Origin: a virus
Reading direction: 5' to 3' (one strand)
IMG/VR virus record: IMGVR_UViG_3300028840_001720
Coordinates: 1 to 48,367 of that record
Length of the DNA: 48,367 bases
Shown here: piece after piece, positions 10,627 to 46,316 of the stretch
Layout of the letters: each line of letters opens with the position of its first letter
How positions within the stretch are numbered: position 1 is the first letter of the stretch
Notes under the pieces: model-generated
What the model was told of the DNA's origin: nothing
Database searches by the model: none
The model's input: only the letters and a program-made list of their open reading frames with translations
Program-made: the position numbers and the translations under genes

Positions 10627-11130
10627 TTATGGTAATGAAGTGAAGTTCAAATTGCGCCACAGGACTACATCTGCCTCCGTCAACTGCCCGTCATGATTGA
10701 CGTCAAGCATGTCGACCATGATGTTCCACTCCGCATCAGCCTTGATGGCCGCGACTGCCTCGGCTTCTGTGCAGTGACCATCCCATTCTTCTCGTTTAGC
10801 TGCCCAAGCCACAACGTCGATATTGTCTAAGATATCATCTTCGTTGATGTCCAAGATACTGACCATCGCCAACCATTCGGAATCTGCTTTGACGACCGCA
10901 AGCGGAGTTTCCGAAACGGTGACCGTGATTGACGAGGTCTCTTCGACCGTAATCGACGTAGTGCTTGTCGAGAGCGAAATGGTTGTCGTGCTTGTCGAGA
11001 GAGAAATCGTATTGGCCGACTCGTTGACGGTAATCGTCGGTGCGGATTCGTTGACCGTGATAGCTGGTGCCGACTCGATGACAGCAACATTGATTGGCGT
11101 CTCTTCGACAGTCACAGCAATCGTGCTCAT
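10627..11130 (-). CDS. beta-repeat protein with a dockerin-like EF-hand pair
   Basis: A 167-residue protein in two parts. Residues 1-75 are short beta-strand repeats rich in Thr/Ser/Val (SAPTITVNESA, STSTTTISLS). Residues about 88-165 hold two dockerin-type calcium loops (DINEDDILDNIDVV and DVNHDGQLTEADVV), each followed by a helix, with the spacing of a type I dockerin. Dockerins normally dock cohesins on cellulosome or surface proteins; in a phage this could attach a virion part to a host surface protein or stabilise a fold with calcium. The calcium residues look intact. Confidence 0.75.
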   Translation of the reverse strand: MSTIAVTVEETPINVAVIESAPAITVNESAPTITVNESANTISLSTSTTTISLSTSTTSITVEETSSITVTVSETPLAVVKADSEWLAMVSILDINEDDILDNIDVVAWAAKREEWDGHCTEAEAVAAIKADAEWNIMVDMLDVNHDGQLTEADVVLWRNLNFTSLP

Positions 11131-11493
11131 TTAGCTCGCCTCTTTCGGCATCTTTGGTAGAATCCGAAACCGGCCCTTCAGCAATGGATAGACAGCCCCC
11201 GCCGCTGTTTCGTATTCAAGGCCGTAGACGTAATTTCCGGGATCAAGACTCGATGTGTCTGATGGCTCGAATTCAATATCAATCGAGCCATTATTCATTG
11301 TTAAGCCCGATCCATTCGTCAAGTCAATCACGCCGCTCGCCGCGTCTTCGGATGTGCGAACTTGAAGCCTACCAGTGGTAGCCCTCAGGTCAAGCGGACT
11401 ACCATCCTGTGTAATGGTAAGAGTGCGAGCAAAGGTTGTCCCCTGTTCCATCACAATGTTGAGTACGCCAGCTTCGCTTTTGGTTTCAGCCAT
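11131..11493 (-). CDS. beta-sandwich phage protein (BppU-N-like)
   Basis: 120 residues beginning with GVLNIVMEQGTTFARTLTIT, a sequence pattern common in a small phage beta-sandwich family found at the N-terminus of baseplate and receptor-binding proteins. It continues with DLRATTGRLQVRTSED and a DPGNYVYGLEY strand. It probably forms a connector domain of a fibre. It abuts the dockerin-like gene with no gap. Confidence 0.7.
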   Translation of the reverse strand: MAETKSEAGVLNIVMEQGTTFARTLTITQDGSPLDLRATTGRLQVRTSEDAASGVIDLTNGSGLTMNNGSIDIEFEPSDTSSLDPGNYVYGLEYETAAGAVYPLLKGRFRILPKMPKEAS

Positions 11494-19624: not shown

Positions 19625-19809
19625 TTTTTGATTCGATCACGCATGTATCGCAACAAGCCGATCAAATTCTGACGAAACCGCTGTCTTCCTTCACGCTTTG
19701 AATCTGCTTCGGGGAAATGTGCAATGTCGTTGTTCAAACAATCCCACGCATTTTGATTTTCGACGAGAAAATCAAAGTCAATATCAATCAGGTGTTTATC
19801 GTACAGCAT
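19621..19809 (-). CDS. 62-residue hypothetical protein
   Basis: A small helical protein (FDFLVENQNAWDCLNNDIAHF ... LIGLLRYMRDRIKK) sitting between the RecD-like helicase and the ERCC4 nuclease. It overlaps the helicase end by 14 bases and the nuclease ATG by four. No domain recognised. Confidence 0.65.
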   Translation of the reverse strand: MLYDKHLIDIDFDFLVENQNAWDCLNNDIAHFPEADSKREGRQRFRQNLIGLLRYMRDRIKK

Positions 19810-21118
19810 CTTCCAGCTCCCTCATTTTTTCGACGGCCATTGTCTTGCGTTTCCACAGGTGCGACTTGCGGCACCAGTCGCTTAGCGTCTGAGGTTTCGC
19901 GATGCAAACACAGAGTTGTTTGGCCCGACTGATTCCCGTGAGAACCCAGTGCCGATCGCATAGCCACTTAGCCCCGCTGCTTTCATCGCCGACGACGAAA
20001 ACAACCGGAAATTCTGCCCCTTGCGATTTATGGCAACTTATCGCATACGCCAATTCCCACTTGCCGGTGTCATCATCACCGCTGCTTCGCGGCTTACTCA
20101 CTCGCACAAGTCGATCTGGCGTATCAAGCTGGCAGATCGTGTTGCCGCCGTCAACTTCAATCACACGGGCCTGCTCGCCGTTGGCGACGTACACCCGCCG
20201 CTGATCATTCATCTCTTCACTGGGACAGCCAGGGGCAGCGAGATACCAGCCGTTTTTGCCGCACACGATTTTGTCGCCTTCGCGGTACGGGTTACCCTTC
20301 GCCTGCTTGCCGGTTGGATTGAGATAGCCTTGCAGCATCGGGTTGAGTTTCTTCCGGCTGACTTCTGATTTTTCGTTGAGGGGCACAATCACCTGAGCAT
20401 GCCAGATGGGGTCAACAACATCCTGCGACCAGTCCCATGCCGCTGACGTTGGATCGAGCCAATCGCGTAGCGCCTGCGTCTGTTCTGCCGGATTCTTCCA
20501 CTCGCGATCAACGTGCAGATTCTCGCCTGCCGCCAGGTCGATTTCTGGCGAGTGTTGCCACTTACCTTCTTCCGCTATCAGCTTGCAGGTCTTCACAATC
20601 CGGCCGGCGTTGCGGTGGATTTCCGTGAGGTGTCCACGCGGAACTCCCAACGCAATCATATCGCGGAATGGGGCACCGTGACCGACTGGCGGTAGCTGGT
20701 TCGGGTCGCCGATAAACAGGACATGGCCACCTTTCCGCCGTGCTGCCAGGAGGGAAGCCATCAGCGACGAGTCAATCATGCTCGCCTCGTCCACGAAGAC
20801 AAACTGATGAGGTAGCGGGTTGCTCCGGTTATAACCGAAGTATCCGGCACCCTCCAGGTACGTGTAGGCGAGCAGCCGGTGTATCGTGGTGCAGTCTAGC
20901 CTGATGCCTTGCTCGCCGAGTGCTTCGGTCATTCTCCTGGCAGCCTTACCAGTCGGTGCCGCCCCCGCCATTCCGCTGCTGCCGTTGCGTTGGCGTAGCT
21001 GGCGGATCAGGTGCCCAAGGCAAGTAGTCTTGCCGCTGCCGGGTCCGCCGGTGAGTAGCCCCACCGTGCCGATGGTTGCGGAGTTGAGGGCGTCGAGTTG
21101 GTGGGCGGTTAGTTGCAT
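19796..21118 (-). CDS. RecD2-like SF1B helicase, motor half
   Basis: 440 residues forming a complete SF1B motor: Walker A GGPGSGKT (24-31), motif Ia APTGKAA, Walker B FVDEAS (about 108-113), motif III GDPNQLPPVGHG (137-148), and C-terminal CHKSQGAEFPVV and TGISRAK motifs. It begins exactly at the domain boundary where RecD2 proteins join their N-terminal region to the motor; that N-terminal region is encoded separately at 24144-25178, on the other side of the CRISPR cassette. The ATG is preceded by TTGGGGAC inside the degenerate last CRISPR repeat. It should unwind DNA 5'-3', alone or with the N-terminal half. Confidence 0.9.
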   Translation of the reverse strand: MQLTAHQLDALNSATIGTVGLLTGGPGSGKTTCLGHLIRQLRQRNGSSGMAGAAPTGKAARRMTEALGEQGIRLDCTTIHRLLAYTYLEGAGYFGYNRSNPLPHQFVFVDEASMIDSSLMASLLAARRKGGHVLFIGDPNQLPPVGHGAPFRDMIALGVPRGHLTEIHRNAGRIVKTCKLIAEEGKWQHSPEIDLAAGENLHVDREWKNPAEQTQALRDWLDPTSAAWDWSQDVVDPIWHAQVIVPLNEKSEVSRKKLNPMLQGYLNPTGKQAKGNPYREGDKIVCGKNGWYLAAPGCPSEEMNDQRRVYVANGEQARVIEVDGGNTICQLDTPDRLVRVSKPRSSGDDDTGKWELAYAISCHKSQGAEFPVVFVVGDESSGAKWLCDRHWVLTGISRAKQLCVCIAKPQTLSDWCRKSHLWKRKTMAVEKMRELEDAVR

Positions 21119-21154
21119 CCAAATATGTCCCCAATATCATTCGTTCGCTGCAAC
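21119..21154 (-). repeat. degenerate terminal CRISPR repeat
   Basis: The last repeat keeps the first 19 bases exactly (minus strand GTTGCAGCGAACGAATGAT) and has diverged in the rest, as expected for the trailer-end copy. The altered half supplies GGGGAC as ribosome site for the RecD-like motor gene, whose ATG is at 21116-21118. Confidence 0.9.
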
Positions 21155-22101
21155 CCGGCGACACGTTCGGCGACAGCGTAGCACTCAACACCTCACAATC
21201 CCAAACCAATCATTCGTTCGCTGCAACCGGCAGGTCCTCTGGTACGCGACCTGCCAGGGCGATCTCACAATCCCAAACCAATCATTCGTTCGCTGCAACA
21301 CCGATGAGCCAATGGCCGATGAAGAAACGCTCCTCCTCACAATCCCAAACCAATCATTCGTTCGCTGCAACTAAATCGGCGGCTGTTCCACTGACTGTCG
21401 ACCATCAGACTCACAATCCCAAACCAATCATTCGTTCGCTGCAACGCAGACGCGAAGCCGAACGCGAGCCGGAGTTCCACGCTCACAATCCCAAACCAAT
21501 CATTCGTTCGCTGCAACTTCCCCGATGGCAACCATCAATACTACCGCCAATCCAACTCACAATCCCAAACCAATCATTCGTTCGCTGCAACTACGCGACG
21601 CGTGGGGGCGTCTGGCGGACATACCCCCTCACAATCCCAAACCAATCATTCGTTCGCTGCAACCGAGTCATCGTTCGGGGTTCGATCACCCAAGCGAGCC
21701 TCACAATCCCAAACCAATCATTCGTTCGCTGCAACTTGCGGCCTGCGATAAGGGCTCCATCCTTTAGCCGGCACCTCACAATCCCAAACCAATCATTCGT
21801 TCGCTGCAACCATCACAAAGGTTACTACATCAGCGTACTGCGGAACTCACAATCCCAAACCAATCATTCGTTCGCTGCAACGCGAAGGAAAGCGGCTTGC
21901 AGCGATACATGCCCGCCTCACAATCCCAAACCAATCATTCGTTCGCTGCAACAAGCCACGTCCGCGCGGCGGCGGCGTCCGCCAGTCCCCCTCACAATCC
22001 CAAACCAATCATTCGTTCGCTGCAACCTCCCTAAACGTAGCCGGAACCTCTCCGGAACCTGGCCGCTCACAATCCCAAACCAATCATTCGTTCGCTGCAA
22101 C
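21119..22101 (-). CRISPR. CRISPR array: 13 perfect repeats, 1 degenerate, 13 spacers
   Basis: Thirteen identical 36-bp repeats (first base positions 21192, 21264, 21336, 21410, 21482, 21556, 21628, 21700, 21775, 21846, 21917, 21991, 22066) and one degenerate repeat at the left end enclose 13 unique spacers of 35-39 bp. Read on the minus strand the repeat begins GTTGCAGCGAACG and ends GGGATTGTGAG. The degenerate copy marks the trailer end, so the leader is at the right and transcription is leftward, in line with the cas-like genes. The GTTGCAG opening resembles published Cas12f repeats. No self-matching spacer was noticed by eye. Confidence 0.98.
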
Positions 22102-22383
22102 TCCGTCGCCATAAGTCCTTTCGCCACAACGGGCCAAAGACATACTTGCGAGAGCCCCCTGCCGATTGGCACCTCTTCCAACCTTCCTTGCAAGTCCCAG
22201 CTTCGGAAACTCTTGCTCAGAAGGAAGTTCTGACACGCGAGCGGTTCCCGGCCTCACAAATCTACGGCACTGCTCGCAAATCGGTAACTGATCAGATTTC
22301 ACCATTTGCAAAAATCTTTTGCGCGACAGTCGCACCGACTTGCCACACACTTCGCATGGCAACTCACGACGAATCTTCGCCAT
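22084..22383 (-). CDS. zinc-ribbon protein next to the Cas12-like gene
   Basis: From the ATG at 22383 (GGGAGAT upstream) the first 45 residues carry C10-x2-C13 and C36-x2-C39 in a basic context, a zinc ribbon like the target-nucleic-acid-binding insert of Cas12 and TnpB. It starts 20 bases inside the Cas12-like gene in another frame, exactly where that protein ends and where Cas12f proteins have their zinc ribbon. The remaining 55 residues have no recognisable fold and run through the array leader; the stop codon is inside the first repeat (22084-22086). It may complement the effector in trans or by frameshift. Confidence 0.65.
   Translation of the reverse strand: MAKIRRELPCEVCGKSVRLSRKRFLQMVKSDQLPICEQCRRFVRPGTARVSELPSEQEFPKLGLARKVGRGANRQGALASMSLARCGERTYGDGVAANE
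22102..22380 (-). promoter_or_regulatory. probable CRISPR leader region
   Basis: The segment between the Cas12-like stop and the first perfect repeat should hold the leader, because the array's degenerate end is on the other side. It is also covered by the zinc-ribbon reading frame, so leader and coding sequence overlap if both are real. I see no convincing -35/-10 pair next to the first repeat; crRNA may be transcribed from an upstream operon promoter. Confidence 0.35.
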
Positions 22384-23509
22384 TGTCAATATCTCCCAGT
22401 CGCAATTTGCGAACCTTGACTTCGATTCCACGACGCGCTGCCGCATTTTTCAAATCGTCCAGCCATCGCGTCCAGTTCCAAGTCAAGCCGTTTGCCTCGA
22501 ACCAGCATTTTTCTTTGGTTGGATTGGTGGGTTCCAGGTACTCCAATACGCCACAGCGATGCCGCTCGCATTGCTTAACCACATCTACGATTGCCCGCCG
22601 TCGCACCTCGGTCACAATGTCGGCAAGTTGAAGATTGCGCTTCGATACCGCGATATCTATTTTCTTTCGTCCGTGCCCCGCCCCCATTCGCTGCCGATAT
22701 CTCCAGCCAATCTGTTTTCGCACGCCGACTAAGCGAAGTGTCTGCGAAATCAGGTACCGTCCTGCACCAATTCCCCAGGCACGACTACGCCCCGGAATCT
22801 CTAGCGAAAACGGTCGCTCGATTTCTCCTTTGCCGATCACCGGTGACAATGTAGCTATTCGATCAGTATCAAGTTGTTCCGTTTCAAACGCGACAGGAAT
22901 ATACCAGTACCATTTCCCGCGACGCTCAAGCAATTTCGAGTCGGCTAGTTTGCGTTCACCTCTTGCCAAGTCATGGATAATCCGCTTAATGCCAGTCGGC
23001 ACGCCCTTGAGTGAGATTGTAAAGTCCAGCGAAATCTGCAAACTATTTCGCATGATGTTGCGAACATGGACTTGCACATCGTCCTCAAAGACAATCGTGG
23101 TATGTTTATTTGCGATAGGCACTGACAAATCCGTGTAAAATGCCGGCCGTTCCTCACGCCGCAGAATCGCATCTTTTCGTTTCGGTCTTTTGCCGTTATC
23201 CGCTACACCCTTTCGCCAATCTACCTTAGCAGCCAGGAAAGAATTGACCTGTTGGGCAATGTTGCTTGCAACATCGGTGCCAAGTCGCGGTACAGACGTT
23301 GTAATTGCATGGTAAAGTTTTGTTGATTCCGACAAGGGCTTGCCTTGTCGGTTTAATTTCGCTTGTTTGGCTGATTCCTTCCGGCCGCGAGCCCGCAATA
23401 GCCAGTCTTCGCTGGCTACATTGCGGGCCTCGCGACACAGACGAGCAACTTCTGTCAGCTCTGCCGGCGGATCAGTCAACTTCAATTTCAAAACTGTTAT
23501 TGACTTCAT
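22364..23509 (-). CDS. Cas12f/TnpB-like effector lacking RuvC-I and RuvC-III
   Basis: 381 residues. The C-terminal half lines up with Cas12f and TnpB: a basic GxGHGRKK segment (276-283), the helix-strand unit ending in VLEYLEPTN with the RuvC-II glutamate E323, then a Trp-rich WNWTRWLDDLKNAAARRGIEV segment matching the WgrFlxxLxYKaexxGi motif. The RuvC-I region (about 216-240, SPVIGKGEIERP) has Gly where the catalytic Asp is expected, and the protein ends before the zinc ribbon and RuvC-III Asp. It should bind guide and DNA without cutting. Lengths of known Cas12f are 400-700 residues. ATGA-coupled to the gene upstream. Confidence 0.75.
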   Translation of the reverse strand: MKSITVLKLKLTDPPAELTEVARLCREARNVASEDWLLRARGRKESAKQAKLNRQGKPLSESTKLYHAITTSVPRLGTDVASNIAQQVNSFLAAKVDWRKGVADNGKRPKRKDAILRREERPAFYTDLSVPIANKHTTIVFEDDVQVHVRNIMRNSLQISLDFTISLKGVPTGIKRIIHDLARGERKLADSKLLERRGKWYWYIPVAFETEQLDTDRIATLSPVIGKGEIERPFSLEIPGRSRAWGIGAGRYLISQTLRLVGVRKQIGWRYRQRMGAGHGRKKIDIAVSKRNLQLADIVTEVRRRAIVDVVKQCERHRCGVLEYLEPTNPTKEKCWFEANGLTWNWTRWLDDLKNAAARRGIEVKVRKLRLGDIDNGEDSS

Positions 23510-24012
23510 ACCGGCATCAATTTCCCTCTCCGTTCAAGCTCGACGATTCGTCCCTCCAAAATTCCCCGCTGTCGCTCGCTCTCGTCAAGACGTTCGCGAA
23601 ACATCGCAGCTTGCTCGCGATACTCTTTCACGTTCGCTTCAGCTTGATCCAGTTTCAACTGGAGTTCTTTGGCCAGAGCCTTCCAATTTGTCTTCTGGAT
23701 TTCACCCGCTTCTTTCGTTGGCGTTGCCAGATCGATCATGGCCCATACGTTGTATTGATATTCAGCCCATGTCGATTTTTTCGGATTGGCTCGATAGGCT
23801 CGAACCAGTTCTGATACCGATGGCGAACCGCCAAAATGCGCGAATTCCTCTTCCTGCAAATGATCCATCAATTGTCCTTCTCCTCCGAACTGGTCGACAT
23901 ACTCTTTGTCGGCCAGCAGTTCGTCAACCAGTTGCAGCATGCGAAAGATATTCTCTCGCGATTGTTTGGCGAGCTTCTTTAATTCTGCTCGCTTCTGTCC
24001 ACTCGTACTCAT
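23506..24012 (-). CDS. coiled-coil protein of the CRISPR operon
   Basis: 168 residues from an ATG with an AAAGGAAA ribosome site. Residues about 5-35 and 110-160 are strongly helical (KALAKELQLKLDQAEANVKE, ERLDESERQRGILEGRIVEL), the latter a likely coiled coil; the middle is globular (WAEYQYNVWAMIDLA). Its stop overlaps the ATG of the Cas12-like gene (ATGA), so it belongs to the same operon. No known Cas or anti-CRISPR family is recognised. Possible roles are dimerisation, DNA-binding help or target silencing. Confidence 0.75.
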   Translation of the reverse strand: MSTSGQKRAELKKLAKQSRENIFRMLQLVDELLADKEYVDQFGGEGQLMDHLQEEEFAHFGGSPSVSELVRAYRANPKKSTWAEYQYNVWAMIDLATPTKEAGEIQKTNWKALAKELQLKLDQAEANVKEYREQAAMFRERLDESERQRGILEGRIVELERRGKLMPV

Positions 24013-24059
24013 TTCATTTTCCTTTCAAAAACGAAGACTTAAAACAGGAACCATCAATC

Positions 24060-24143
24060 AGACACAGCCGCTCGGTTTGGGATTTCCGCGTCCTGACGTA
24101 ATCCACATCGCGGATTTACGGAATTTGGCGAGAGGTCCGGCTG
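24060..24143 (-). ncRNA. candidate tracrRNA (hairpin plus anti-repeat)
   Basis: The 131-base gap upstream of the CRISPR operon holds, on the minus strand, first a hairpin (CGTAAATCC at 24112-24120 with GGATTACG at 24097-24104; one bulged A, 7-base loop), then AATCCCAAACC (24074-24084), the exact complement of 11 bases in the 3' half of the repeat. With the next two bases the pairing reaches 13 with one G-U. Cas12f tracrRNAs also have stem-loops 5' of an anti-repeat that pairs with the repeat's 3' half. The promoter is not evident. Confidence 0.45.
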
Positions 24144-25178
24144 TCACATTAAGACCTCCGGCTGCTCGCCATTCGGGCTGTGAGCACCCGTTTGACTACG
24201 GCTGTGCCTGATTGATTGCTCCCACTTCGCCTCTCCCGCCAAACCAAAATCATCATCCAGTTCGTGCCAAGCGACATGAAGATCGGACACCCACGAAGAT
24301 TCAGCGTCAGCTTTCGCTGACTCGGCGTACCATCGTCGCCCATCGCCATCCACCCGCTCGCGGATCATGTCCCGCTCGATTGCATCGGCTATCGCTTCTC
24401 GCACCTGGACAGTAGCTCCCGCGATCTTCGCGTCTAGCTCTTTGCGAATCACGCTTTCGAGAAGCCACGTGCTACCAGAAGAATCGGATTCAAGAGCGTA
24501 CAGGGCACAATGCGTCTGCCGGATCAACGCGCCCATCGGCAAGCCAAGTGACTCGTATAGCCGATCACAGAGCAAAAACCCACAGCCGGCAAACCCGCGA
24601 AGCACATACGGATTGTCGCGGATCACCTGCACTGCACTTTCGCCCCACGCCTCGATGCATTTCTGCGAGGTTGACTTTGGAAAACCGCGATTTGCCAGAA
24701 GCCCCTCAACCTCAATCGTGATTGCTTCCAGTGCTTTTCTGGCAGAGAAAAACGACGATGCAGCCTCAACCGTCGTGACATTGAGGCTGCATCGCTTGGC
24801 CACGCTGGCCGGCTCAAGTCGCAATTTCTCTAGTGCCAGCTCTCCAAATTCTGCGACGATCTTGATTGCTGCTTGCGGACCGATGCCGTTTGCCTTTTGT
24901 AAATATCGCTGGATGGCTTGCAGGTCGGTCGGCTCAACCGGAGTAAACGAAGAAAATTGAAACTGCCGACCGAACCTATCGTGTGTTTGCACCCGCCCCA
25001 GAAACCGATACTTCTCACCCATGCACAGCGAGCCGGCCTTGGCATTTCCTACTACCGTTTGCCCGTCTCGCATTTTGCCAACCACCCAGCGATCAGCCGA
25101 ATCGTCTTCGCCGATCGCCCGGTGTTCGTGGGAGAAGATCCCGATTAGTTCTTCGGTTTTTGGGGTTACGACTGGCAC
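24144..25178 (-). CDS. RecD2-like helicase, N-terminal half
   Basis: 344 residues matching the N-terminal part of RecD2 proteins: an OB-like domain (KYRFLGRVQTHDRFGRQFQFSSF), helix-hairpin-helix modules (KANGIGPQAAIKIVAEFG; NPYVLRGFAGCGFLLCDRL), and a helical end. It has no Walker motifs; these are in the separate motor gene at 19796-21118. It starts with GTG behind GAGGGG and ends with a stop about 130 bases before the CRISPR operon. The two halves together total 784 residues, near the usual RecD2 size. They probably associate in the cell. Confidence 0.82.
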   Translation of the reverse strand: MPVVTPKTEELIGIFSHEHRAIGEDDSADRWVVGKMRDGQTVVGNAKAGSLCMGEKYRFLGRVQTHDRFGRQFQFSSFTPVEPTDLQAIQRYLQKANGIGPQAAIKIVAEFGELALEKLRLEPASVAKRCSLNVTTVEAASSFFSARKALEAITIEVEGLLANRGFPKSTSQKCIEAWGESAVQVIRDNPYVLRGFAGCGFLLCDRLYESLGLPMGALIRQTHCALYALESDSSGSTWLLESVIRKELDAKIAGATVQVREAIADAIERDMIRERVDGDGRRWYAESAKADAESSWVSDLHVAWHELDDDFGLAGEAKWEQSIRHSRSQTGAHSPNGEQPEVLM

Positions 25179-26398: not shown

Positions 26399-27433
26399 CT
26401 AGGATTTTCCCAGTTTGGCCCGGAGCTGATCGAGCATTTGTCTTGCTGTCGCGAGTGGCAACTCCGACAGTTTCGATACGCCGGCCTTGTCCAATGCCGC
26501 TTGGAGCTTGTCGGACATTTCCAAAACGTGGAGGTGCATCGCGACGAGCAACTGGTGAGCTTGCTCCTCGCTCATGTCATTCATGGTGACACCCTCGCCG
26601 AAAATTTCGCCGGCTTGCTGACGGACCCATTCGTTGAGCTTGAACTTCGCCGCGATCTGCTTAATTTCGTTTTTCGATTCCATCGAAGCAGCCGCAAGTG
26701 CGTCGCCCTTCGCCGTCGCCGCTGCCGCTTCGGCGTTCGCTTCGGCCACCGCAGGATCAACCGCTCTGGCAGTGTCACCGCCTTGTGACTCCGACGCAGC
26801 ATCCGTGCCAGACTCCGTGGCTGTCGCCTCCGTGTCTTGCTCCGGCCGGCCGCGTTTTTTCTTTTGCGGTTCCGACTCGACTTGGAACGATGCGTCGATT
26901 ATTTCACCGCCGATGTACTCCGCGTCTTCCTGCATCCCGGCCCCGATGGACGGCTCGAACATCGTAGCTGCCCTTCCCCAAAGTTTCGACCGAAGCATCT
27001 GGGCAGGGTCTTTGTCCCAAGCAGACCCAGCCTTGAATTTCTTTCCGTCGCTCTTGCCAAGTCCTTTGCGGTGTGCCATCTCGATCGTGAATTCAATATC
27101 GTGCGATTGGCTGCCGTTTTCCAACCGCACAGCCGCACGCTTGCCGTCCTCCCCCGTGTTCAGCCAAGTCACTTTCCATCCACGGCGAAGCATCTCTGCA
27201 TGAATCCACTCAGCCCGCAGGCCGAATCCTCCCTCATCGTAGACGTGGTACTTCTGCTCAAATGCGACTGGGGGCAGCCCCTCGCTGAGCATCTGTATCG
27301 CGACCACCGTAGCAAGCGATTTGCTCTTGACGCCTTTCATCCCCATTACGATACGTTCACCCATGTTTTGGATGAACGCGAGCGATCGCTCCGGGTCAGA
27401 GGCTATCACGCTAAGTGCCATTGTTTCCGCCAT
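26399..27433 (-). CDS. RecT-like single-strand annealing protein
   Basis: 344 residues from the ATG at 27433, which has GGGAGA nine bases upstream. The core (ATVVAIQMLSEGLPPVAFEQKYHV; AEWIHAEMLRRGWKV; WDKDPAQMLRSKLWGRAATMFEP) follows the RecT/Red-beta pattern of an early helix bundle and the W-x-x-x-P...ML...R...A...R region. A long low-complexity Ala/Glu/Thr linker leads to a helical C-terminal domain. It would anneal complementary single strands during recombination with the SSB-like protein. Confidence 0.7.
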   Translation of the reverse strand: MAETMALSVIASDPERSLAFIQNMGERIVMGMKGVKSKSLATVVAIQMLSEGLPPVAFEQKYHVYDEGGFGLRAEWIHAEMLRRGWKVTWLNTGEDGKRAAVRLENGSQSHDIEFTIEMAHRKGLGKSDGKKFKAGSAWDKDPAQMLRSKLWGRAATMFEPSIGAGMQEDAEYIGGEIIDASFQVESEPQKKKRGRPEQDTEATATESGTDAASESQGGDTARAVDPAVAEANAEAAAATAKGDALAAASMESKNEIKQIAAKFKLNEWVRQQAGEIFGEGVTMNDMSEEQAHQLLVAMHLHVLEMSDKLQAALDKAGVSKLSELPLATARQMLDQLRAKLGKS

Positions 27434-27557
27434 CGTTTTCATTCTCCCTTTGCTGTTTTCGTTCCCAAATAACCTCCGAAATAAGACACGCTATTGCGAC
27501 TGCCAGGGGGATGCACGCGATGGCAGTCGAGATCGTTGCTAGTTTCCAGACTTCCAT
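27411..27557 (-). CDS. 48-residue membrane protein
   Basis: A small gene (ATG at 27557, GGAAG upstream) whose product has one membrane helix (LATISTAIACIPLAVAIACLI) followed by a charged tail (SEVIWERKQQRENENDGG). It overlaps the RecT-like start by 23 bases. Small membrane proteins of this type are frequent and unassignable. Confidence 0.5.
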   Translation of the reverse strand: MEVWKLATISTAIACIPLAVAIACLISEVIWERKQQRENENDGGNNGT

Positions 27558-44153: not shown

Positions 44154-46316
44154 TTACCATCGGCCTCTTGTGAATTGTCCGGTTGTCGGCACCGCTGCAA
44201 CTGGGGCAGGCGTCGATCTTCGCGCCTTGGCGGTCGGTGCCACCTTTTCTATCGTGCGGGTGATCGGCTCCAGACGCTCAATACCTCGCATAATGCGGCC
44301 AAGGATCGTCAACGCCGTGCTGTCCAAATAGTGATTCTGTTTTCGCACCTTCCACCAGCCGAGCCGGTTTTTCTTCCAGCCTTTTTCGAAGCGTTCCTCC
44401 CAGATTTCCGCCGTCACCTGAAACGCAAAGGTCTTGTGCGGCAATCGCGTGTCCGTCTCGAACACCCGAAGCGAGCCAGTGTAGCCCGTTTCTGTGAGAA
44501 ACCCTGAATGCACTTGCAGCTTAAATGTGTCAGGGTCAAAAAGAATTACGCCTTCCTTACTGGCGTGCCATCCAGGTCCACCAATGTCCGCCCATTGCGG
44601 CCGGCGGTATGGGCTCCAACCTTTCGTTGGAATAAATCGGAGCGTACCGACTTCCCGGCAGAACTTCCGCACGGGCTGCTCTTTCCAAGGCTCCTCTTTC
44701 CACCCCTCGTCGATCGCGATCAAATCGACGTGATAGGGCAGTTTGTCGATCACCTCTGTTTTCCAATCGTGCAAAGCGTTGTAGATGCACAGATCCATTG
44801 TTTCGATAGGCAAGCCGGCAGAATGGAAATCGAAAAAATCGTAGTCCACGATCGAGCCGGCAGCCTCCGAGTTCCACGCGGTAGTGGTGTACTCCAGACC
44901 GGCCTTGCGAATGTCGACGCCGCAGACGATTCCCGTCGCGTCGTCTGGGATCTCCTGGCGTTTCAGCCCGGACCCACACTGATACATGATATGATCTGGC
45001 GTCAAAATCAACGGCTGCTCGGCATCTGCCGGCGGGTCGTTTTGGTGTTCCGTAAGAAACGAATCCATGCCGTTGTCGGCGATGTAGTCGTAGCATTTCT
45101 GCAGCGCCGATAAGTGCTCTGGCTGCTTGTCGTCGAGTAAATCGGTGTTGTAGTCGTGCCCCGAAGACATCTCGCAGCCAGCGTGCATTTTGTCGAATCG
45201 TTCCCGCAGAAAATCACGGGCTTCGCGGGCGTGCTTGTCATGCGGCTGTCGGTTGCGGCGTAGCTCAATATATGTCTCCCACAAATCGAGCCGATCGGGC
45301 CATTTGATGATTCGCGGGACTCGCTGACCGTCCCAGGATGGCTTCTCGTCCCGGTCGGTGTACTGATAGGCCGCTGAACGCCGGCTAGTGATCGTACAGA
45401 TAAACACCTTGCCAAGCCGCTTGTTCGGTCCGCCCAGCCCCGCGACAGTCTTGTCAATGCAATCCTCGATCTTTCCGGCTATTAGCCCTTGTTCGGCTGC
45501 GAGGCTGTCTCGGCTGTCCAGGTCGTCGAGCATAACGAAGTCCGGCCGGCGGTCGTAGATATTGAGCCCCTGAAGCGAATCAGACGAGAACCCCAAGCAC
45601 ATCAACACCGGCCCCAACTCGGTTTCGTTTTTGGGCAATCCGTACTTGACGGTCGCGTACTTCCCCCGCCCGTCCGGCAGACTGGGCAGCACGACGTGTT
45701 GCGGTCCCCACTCGACCCGGACGGGCAACCCGCCCCATGTCACGCTGCGAGCCCTCGACGGTGCCGGCGCGATGTAGCGGCAGATCGATGTCTCAAACGG
45801 AAAATCCTCGTGCAGCTTTTTGTTGGTGATAGTCCGCAGCTTTGCCTTAATGTCACGCAAGATCTGTTCGCCCTTGGTTGTCGTGGCTGCGAGAATCAGC
45901 GGAAACTTCAGTTGCCGATAGAGAGCGTACTTGAGTTGGAGGTACTTGAGGATGGTAGACTTCCCGCTGCCTCGCGGCATCGCCATTGCCTTCGATGTGC
46001 CGTATCGAATCGCCCGGCCGCAGTCCTCGATGAATTGCTTTTGAGCGCTGGTGAATGGAGCATAGAACACATCGGGGAAATACGTGCGCAGGAACTTTTG
46101 GTCGTCCTTCTCGCAAGCTCGACGGCGTCGCGGATTCTGAACGATGCGGGCGGGAATGTCGCGACCCGACGACCGCATCTCCCGCTTGCGAATCGCGTCG
46201 GCTGCCCGCACTTTGTCGGCCTGCTCCGCTGGCATCCCCTTGAGCGCAGCCTTCAGTTTTCGCCGTTGCTCCTGCAACTTGCGGTCTGCGGCTCGTAGTT
46301 CTTCGATGGTTGGCAT
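44154..46316 (-). CDS. large terminase subunit
   Basis: 720 residues from the ATG at 46316, which overlaps the previous stop as TAATG; the longer frame is not needed. The ATPase has a Walker A (AMPRGSGKSTI, about residues 111-121) and Walker B (DFVMLDDLDS) with a downstream catalytic Asp/Glu region. The nuclease-type VCGVDIRKAGLEYTTT and AIDEGWKEE blocks follow. It packages DNA into proheads. A Lys/Arg-rich N-terminus (KAALKGMPAEQADKVRAAD) may bind the small subunit. Confidence 0.9.
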   Translation of the reverse strand: MPTIEELRAADRKLQEQRRKLKAALKGMPAEQADKVRAADAIRKREMRSSGRDIPARIVQNPRRRRACEKDDQKFLRTYFPDVFYAPFTSAQKQFIEDCGRAIRYGTSKAMAMPRGSGKSTILKYLQLKYALYRQLKFPLILAATTTKGEQILRDIKAKLRTITNKKLHEDFPFETSICRYIAPAPSRARSVTWGGLPVRVEWGPQHVVLPSLPDGRGKYATVKYGLPKNETELGPVLMCLGFSSDSLQGLNIYDRRPDFVMLDDLDSRDSLAAEQGLIAGKIEDCIDKTVAGLGGPNKRLGKVFICTITSRRSAAYQYTDRDEKPSWDGQRVPRIIKWPDRLDLWETYIELRRNRQPHDKHAREARDFLRERFDKMHAGCEMSSGHDYNTDLLDDKQPEHLSALQKCYDYIADNGMDSFLTEHQNDPPADAEQPLILTPDHIMYQCGSGLKRQEIPDDATGIVCGVDIRKAGLEYTTTAWNSEAAGSIVDYDFFDFHSAGLPIETMDLCIYNALHDWKTEVIDKLPYHVDLIAIDEGWKEEPWKEQPVRKFCREVGTLRFIPTKGWSPYRRPQWADIGGPGWHASKEGVILFDPDTFKLQVHSGFLTETGYTGSLRVFETDTRLPHKTFAFQVTAEIWEERFEKGWKKNRLGWWKVRKQNHYLDSTALTILGRIMRGIERLEPITRTIEKVAPTAKARRSTPAPVAAVPTTGQFTRGRW

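Follow-up and report, generated by a model that had tools for sequence, protein, structure and literature searches.

The virus record IMGVR_UViG_3300028840_001720 was analysed over its whole length of 48,367 bp (hereafter the window). It encodes phage-type proteins, namely a portal protein, a large terminase (TerL), a tape-measure protein and a primase, and nearly all of its genes lie on the minus strand. The recD2 gene of the phage is cleanly split into two ORFs (19796-25178) by a 3.1-kb CRISPR cassette, which comprises in this order a structured RNA element, a coiled-coil protein (P0002), a Cas12f-like protein (P0001), a zinc-ribbon ORF and a 13-spacer array (Table 1). In the profile alignment, RecD2 homology stops at residue 325 of P0003 (nt ~24204), within the 5' arm of the RNA element, which indicates that this element belongs to the inserted cassette; the same alignment suggests that the element also supplies the codons for the last ~19 residues of P0003. 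The terminal repeat of the array is degenerate at the place where the ribosome-binding site of P0004 would probably sit. The cassette sequence is identical in a second assembly. A sibling contig (IMGVR_UViG_3300018080_000343) has 74 additional bases at window position 26844, in a low-complexity part of ORF 26399-27442. Searches of viral contigs, bacterial genomes, phages and plasmids with P0001, P0002, P0004, TerL, the repeat and the RNA element returned no relatives beyond the same viral population, distant RecD helicases being the sole exception.

Table 1. Features of the CRISPR cassette and of the flanking recD2 halves (positions in the window)
Feature	Position	Strand	Remarks
P0004, C-terminal helicase half of split RecD2	19796-21118	-	TIGR01448 positions 315-709 of 713
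CRISPR array	21119-22101	-	13 identical repeats of 36 nt plus a degenerate terminal one (21119-21154); 13 spacers, 35-39 nt
Spacer 9	21736-21774	-	from large terminase gene of related phage; peptide score 72
Zinc-ribbon ORF (CxxC...CxxC)	22084-22383	-	zinc-ribbon match, E 1.5e-4
P0001, Cas12f/Cas12u3-like effector, 381 aa	22364-23509	-	PADLOC: Cas12u3 1e-10, Cas12f 8e-10
P0002, 168 aa, coiled-coil-like C-terminal part	23506-24012	-	only weak coiled-coil matches
Structured RNA element, candidate tracrRNA, 176 nt	24047-24222	-	MFE -88.3; overlaps 3' end of upstream recD2 half-gene
Closing stem, 3' arm	24047-24070	-	inverted repeat; stems 24071-24053 and 24051-24047
Anti-repeat AAUCCCAAACCGA	24072-24084	-	pairing partner of repeat bases 19-31 (exact over the 11 bases 24074-24084); unpaired junction strand in fold
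Hairpin 5' of anti-repeat, minimum-energy fold	24084-24123	-	replaces earlier hairpin 24097-24120
P0003, N-terminal half of split RecD2 helicase	24144-25178	-	TIGR01448 positions 27-308
Closing stem, 5' arm	24199-24222	-	inverted repeat, 88%; stems 24222-24218 and 24216-24198

Effector, partner proteins and CRISPR array

The Cas12u3 and Cas12f profiles match residues 18-365 of P0001; in the controls the same profiles also match TnpB. By sequence, the closest solved structure is a 433-aa Cas12f (E 0.022), 433 aa being the length given for OsCas12f1 (PMC10090079). An AlphaFold model of P0001 alone reached a pLDDT of 38.7 and was not used. The match with Cas12f profiles is one of the marks of type V-F; another, an intact RuvC catalytic triad and a zinc finger in one chain, is absent from P0001. 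Indeed (i) the RuvC-I aspartate is replaced (ATLSPVIG versus ILGVDMG in the alignment) and (ii) the protein ends before the zinc finger and RuvC-III, so that P0001 is unlikely to be a cutting enzyme. By analogy with Cas12m (type V-M, formerly V-U1), a compact effector that protects by DNA binding and not by cutting (PMC11013384), we infer that P0001 could act by DNA binding without cleavage, although Cas12m is not its best match. Phage-encoded, RNA-guided proteins of the TnpB family that have lost nuclease activity are also known as TldR (PMC13418256); these serve in host-gene control, whereas the system described here has a CRISPR array with 13 spacers against other phages.

The zinc-ribbon ORF lies in another frame, overlaps the end of P0001, stops inside the first repeat and has no RuvC-III motif. 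It is possibly the detached zinc finger. Since the second assembly has the identical sequence, an assembly error is unlikely to be the cause of the frame break between P0001 and this ORF. The missing RuvC-I and RuvC-III and the zinc ribbon in another frame would also fit a decaying remnant, in which a frameshift cost the effector its catalytic residues and zinc finger, and the RNA and the array no longer have a function; we regard this as very improbable in view of the 13 identical repeats, the uninterrupted reading frames of P0001, P0002 and the two RecD2 halves, the agreement of the two assemblies and the very stable RNA fold described below.

The repeat in gene direction is GTTGCAGCGAACGAATGATTGGTTTGGGATTGTGAG, and it has no strong hairpin near the spacer. 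The origin of spacer 9 emerged from a comparison with the homologue in this phage itself. Read in the large-terminase frame, the spacer encodes VPAKGWSPYRRPQ, and the phage's own terminase (44595-44633) has IPTKGWSPYRRPQ; 11/13 residues and 30/39 bases agree, the changes being mostly synonymous, and the peptide score of 72 compares with at most 46 among shuffled spacers (n=300). A peptide so close to the phage's own terminase and yet different indicates that spacer 9 derives from the terminase gene of a related phage. The exact target phage was not found by search, and the other 12 spacers gave no such match. A putative TerL relative (L242) was discarded, its motif match being due to chance. 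In the phage's own terminase gene, the triplet 5' of the spacer-9 site is TTT in gene-sense orientation; PAMs of Cas12f are usually T-rich and 5'. No Cas1 was found in the phage, which therefore does not acquire spacers by itself. The features by which phage-encoded CRISPR systems for interviral conflict are recognised, namely a phage genome, the absence of adaptation genes and a spacer matching another phage (here spacer 9), are all present. Type V systems lacking adaptation genes are already known from phages, and it is the form of the present one that is new: cyanophage CL131 (type V-U2) and other phage mini-CRISPR systems have a small type V effector and ~10 spacers and no adaptation genes (PMC6293099, PMC12607003). 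CL131 differs from the window in that its effector is another one, no tracrRNA was found in it and no insertion into a split recD2 is reported.

Structured RNA element and its anti-repeat

An earlier note on this DNA had proposed a candidate tracrRNA at 24060-24143. These boundaries proved too short: a 24-base inverted repeat (24047-24070 and 24199-24222) forms the base of a 176-nt fold with a minimum free energy of -88.3 kcal/mol, whereas the 84-nt segment alone is weakly structured (z -1.44 versus shuffles). The fold is closed by two stems, of 5 and 19 bp, and carries three hairpins; it holds the anti-repeat as a long single-stranded junction strand and takes in the last ~26 codons of the upstream ORF. 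The 24-base hairpin first placed at 24097-24120 has a probability of only ~3% in this fold and gives way to the hairpin listed in Table 1. A 173-nt cut (24048-24220) has a z-score of -7.46, none of 200 shuffles being as stable (opposite strand, z -5.20); this score is somewhat flattered, since the edges of the fold were picked after the inverted repeat had been seen. The two arms differ at three places. At two of these, G-U pairing is kept on the minus strand but becomes A-C on the plus strand, in favour of a minus-strand RNA. An Rfam search returned nothing.

On the plus strand, positions 24074-24084 read GGTTTGGGATT, as do bases 21-31 of the minus-strand repeat. The minus-strand transcript, AAUCCCAAACC, therefore pairs exactly with the repeat over 11 bases, and with 24072-24073 added the helix reaches 13 pairs (repeat bases 19-31) with one G-U, which bears out the earlier description of this anti-repeat. 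It lies on the same strand as the cas gene and the array. In this sole 13-bp helix the last five repeat bases stay unpaired and the 5' part of the repeat has no free partner. Because the window has, outside the array, three 11-base matches to the repeat (~0.35% per gap-sized stretch, one strand), the match alone is modest evidence. Among 1500 shuffled repeats, 2 to 4 equalled the real repeat in their pairing to the gap or the element (p ~0.001-0.003), and the earlier chance estimate of ~0.2% thus holds. Co-folding of the 84-nt segment with the repeat, which had been proposed as a check, gave p 0.04-0.09. In the 176-nt fold the anti-repeat is mostly 0.9-1.0 unpaired, its opening costs 1.05 kcal/mol and the duplex with the repeat yields ~-16.5 kcal/mol. 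An accessibility-weighted scan of both strands of the 48 kb ranks this site first for the gene-sense repeat (-12.1), by a small margin over the runner-up (-11.8); the same scan fails to rank the tracrRNA of a control locus (L065, see below) first, and is a test of the candidate in the window, not a general finder.

These results bear on the possibility that the 11-base match is due to chance and that the fold is genuine but belongs to the phage or to the insertion of the cassette (an inverted-repeat end, a transcript-processing site or a terminator-like site), the effector being tracr-free or using another RNA. Such an origin would agree with the three 11-base matches in the window, with the position of the inverted repeat at the cassette boundary and with L237, another phage locus with a compact effector, whose gene abuts the array, leaving no visible tracrRNA, and whose repeat forms a hairpin; from L237, tracr-free function may apply to the window system as well. 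We nevertheless hold it to be improbable, because the match falls on the long strand that the fold leaves unpaired, comes first among accessible sites and has a p of 0.001-0.003 against shuffled repeats.

The earlier note had also placed the candidate in the only non-coding gap of the cassette. This is correct if the zinc-ribbon ORF is real; otherwise 22102-22363, the usual place of a tracrRNA between cas gene and array, is non-coding too, and this segment contains no anti-repeat (co-fold p 0.73). On the minus strand of the cassette, no other anti-repeat stands out. Several other approaches were set aside. Duplex energy without accessibility was uninformative (candidate rank 155/4726). The published criterion for Cas12f tracrRNAs (PMC10090079) accepts the candidate but also 1.1% of all positions, and so does not discriminate. 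In the accessibility-weighted scan with the opposite crRNA orientation the candidate does not stand out. A two-part anti-repeat (AATCCCAAACC and GCTGTG) is the best bipartite match in the window and resembles that of L065; it was rejected because GCTGTG is locked in the 19-bp stem and its opening costs 22 kcal/mol.

A comparable fold was seen at just one other place, within the coding sequence of P0001, where two strong hairpins are found in the interval 23320-23460. One comprises ~20 bp interrupted by small bulges; the other is a perfect stem of 9 bp, followed by TTTAATTT on the plus strand. The segment 23350-23449 has z-scores of -5.9 on the minus strand and -8.4 on the plus strand.

Comparison with known systems and proposed function

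The control locus L065 (IMGVR_UViG_3300037317_000075), on another phage contig and found by its repeat-start pattern, encodes an intact Cas12f, a 5-repeat array and, between gene and array, a clear tracrRNA whose anti-repeat is complementary to bases 21-31 and 1-8 of the repeat (co-fold p 0.003). As in the window, its repeat begins GTTGCAGCG, the anti-repeat covers repeat bases 21-31, and gene, tracrRNA and array lie on one strand of a phage genome. Unlike the window, L065 has an intact RuvC, a TATAAT box ahead of a tracrRNA located between gene and array, and a second anti-repeat to repeat bases 1-8, and its effector is not alignable with P0001 by BLASTP.

Type V-F systems with Cas12f1 (SpCas12f1, AsCas12f1 and OsCas12f1) share with the window a small effector of the same profile family, a same-strand array, and a long, structured tracrRNA-like element whose anti-repeat is directed at the repeat's 3' half; Cas12f1 is characterised by long tracrRNAs, of 153 and 169 nt (PMC8548392). 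They differ in three respects: (i) the RuvC-I and RuvC-III residues are lost in the window and its zinc ribbon is in a separate frame, (ii) published Cas12f tracrRNAs sit between cas gene and array, whereas the element lies upstream of the operon, and (iii) its anti-repeat is in an internal junction and not at the 3' end. By the location of its candidate tracrRNA and by its catalytic site, the window system is thus not a standard member of type V-F. A partial precedent for an anti-repeat presented in a junction is Cas12c2, in which pieces of the repeat pair, as pseudoknots, with loops enclosed by tracrRNA stems (PMC9522604). The tracrRNA of Cas12c2 and the scoutRNAs (types V-C and V-D) nevertheless serve large, unrelated effectors and form several 4-nt helices, in contrast to one 13-bp helix here; with 11-13 bp and a Cas12f-like effector, the element is not a scoutRNA, which would show 3-5 nt of complementarity and belong to Cas12c or Cas12d.

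The Cas12f family needs a tracrRNA. Given the right strand, the accessible anti-repeat, the strong fold and a cassette with an array and a Cas12f-related effector, a tracrRNA or a tracrRNA-like scaffold is the best reading of the element, which has both an anti-repeat able to pair with the crRNA and a stable structure outside it (z -7.46). The 176-nt RNA (24222 to 24047, minus strand), with the anti-repeat in its 3' part, is probably the tracrRNA of a type V-F-like mini-CRISPR of the phage, and the proposal of the earlier note is in this respect strengthened. Several points weigh against it: the position upstream of the operon is unusual, no promoter is seen, and in the collections searched the element occurs in one viral population only, with no relative whose repeat has changed; further, the margin over the runner-up site is small, the single helix leaves both ends of the repeat without a partner, the published criterion does not discriminate, and P0001 contains a comparable fold. 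No sigma-70-like promoter was found in the cassette, nor a promoter or terminator of the element's own on the minus strand.

The absence of these signals, the strong fold and the position directly upstream of P0002, as a 5' leader, would also suit a cis-acting leader of the operon. Such a leader would control the coiled-coil and effector genes, and free crRNA repeats binding to the exposed strand may tune expression to the crRNA supply; the effector would not carry the RNA. We consider this unlikely: either another scaffold or an effector that works without a tracrRNA would then be needed, the repeat of the window, unlike that of L237, has no strong hairpin near the spacer, and the minus strand of the cassette offers no second anti-repeat that stands out.

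As a tracrRNA, the element could be made with the recD2-cas transcript, or processed from such a transcript. According to the computed fold, the closing stem and the three hairpins would form a scaffold exposing the anti-repeat strand, which is predicted to pair with repeat bases 19-31 in the same-strand array transcript. From what is known of Cas12f and Cas12c, this pairing would fix the crRNA for processing and loading. The RNA would then be bound by P0001, and this Cas12f-like protein, having lost its RuvC-I and RuvC-III residues, may bind target DNA under guidance of the crRNA without cutting it. Genes of rival phages would be silenced in this way, one spacer being drawn from a relative's terminase gene. 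A more specific proposal, which we put forward tentatively and at somewhat less than even chances, is that the element represents a new tracrRNA architecture: a closed multibranch RNA in the 5' leader of an operon, with a 12-nt anti-repeat in a junction, serving, in the silencing of rival phages, a nuclease-dead phage relative of Cas12f that has its zinc ribbon on a separate chain and a coiled-coil protein as partner. If so, phages maintain a purely DNA-binding CRISPR system directed at the packaging genes of competitors, and the topology of its guide-RNA scaffold differs from that of known Cas12f tracrRNAs. The minimal system would consist of one RNA, one protein of ~380 aa and two small partners, and could be rebuilt in vitro for direct tests.

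Other phage loci examined alongside the window provided further observations. In L065, a tracrRNA-like scaffold occurs twice in tandem in the region 10905-11400, each copy preceded by a TATAAT-like box and only one of them carrying the anti-repeat; their 26-nt hairpin differs by a compensatory change (GGGGTG/CACCCC versus AGGGTG/CACCCT). Compact Cas12f-like effectors with arrays are also encoded on the phage contigs L237 (3100-5135) and L236 (3290-6352). The effector gene of L237 codes for 434 aa with intact RuvC motifs, and there is no room for a tracrRNA before its array.
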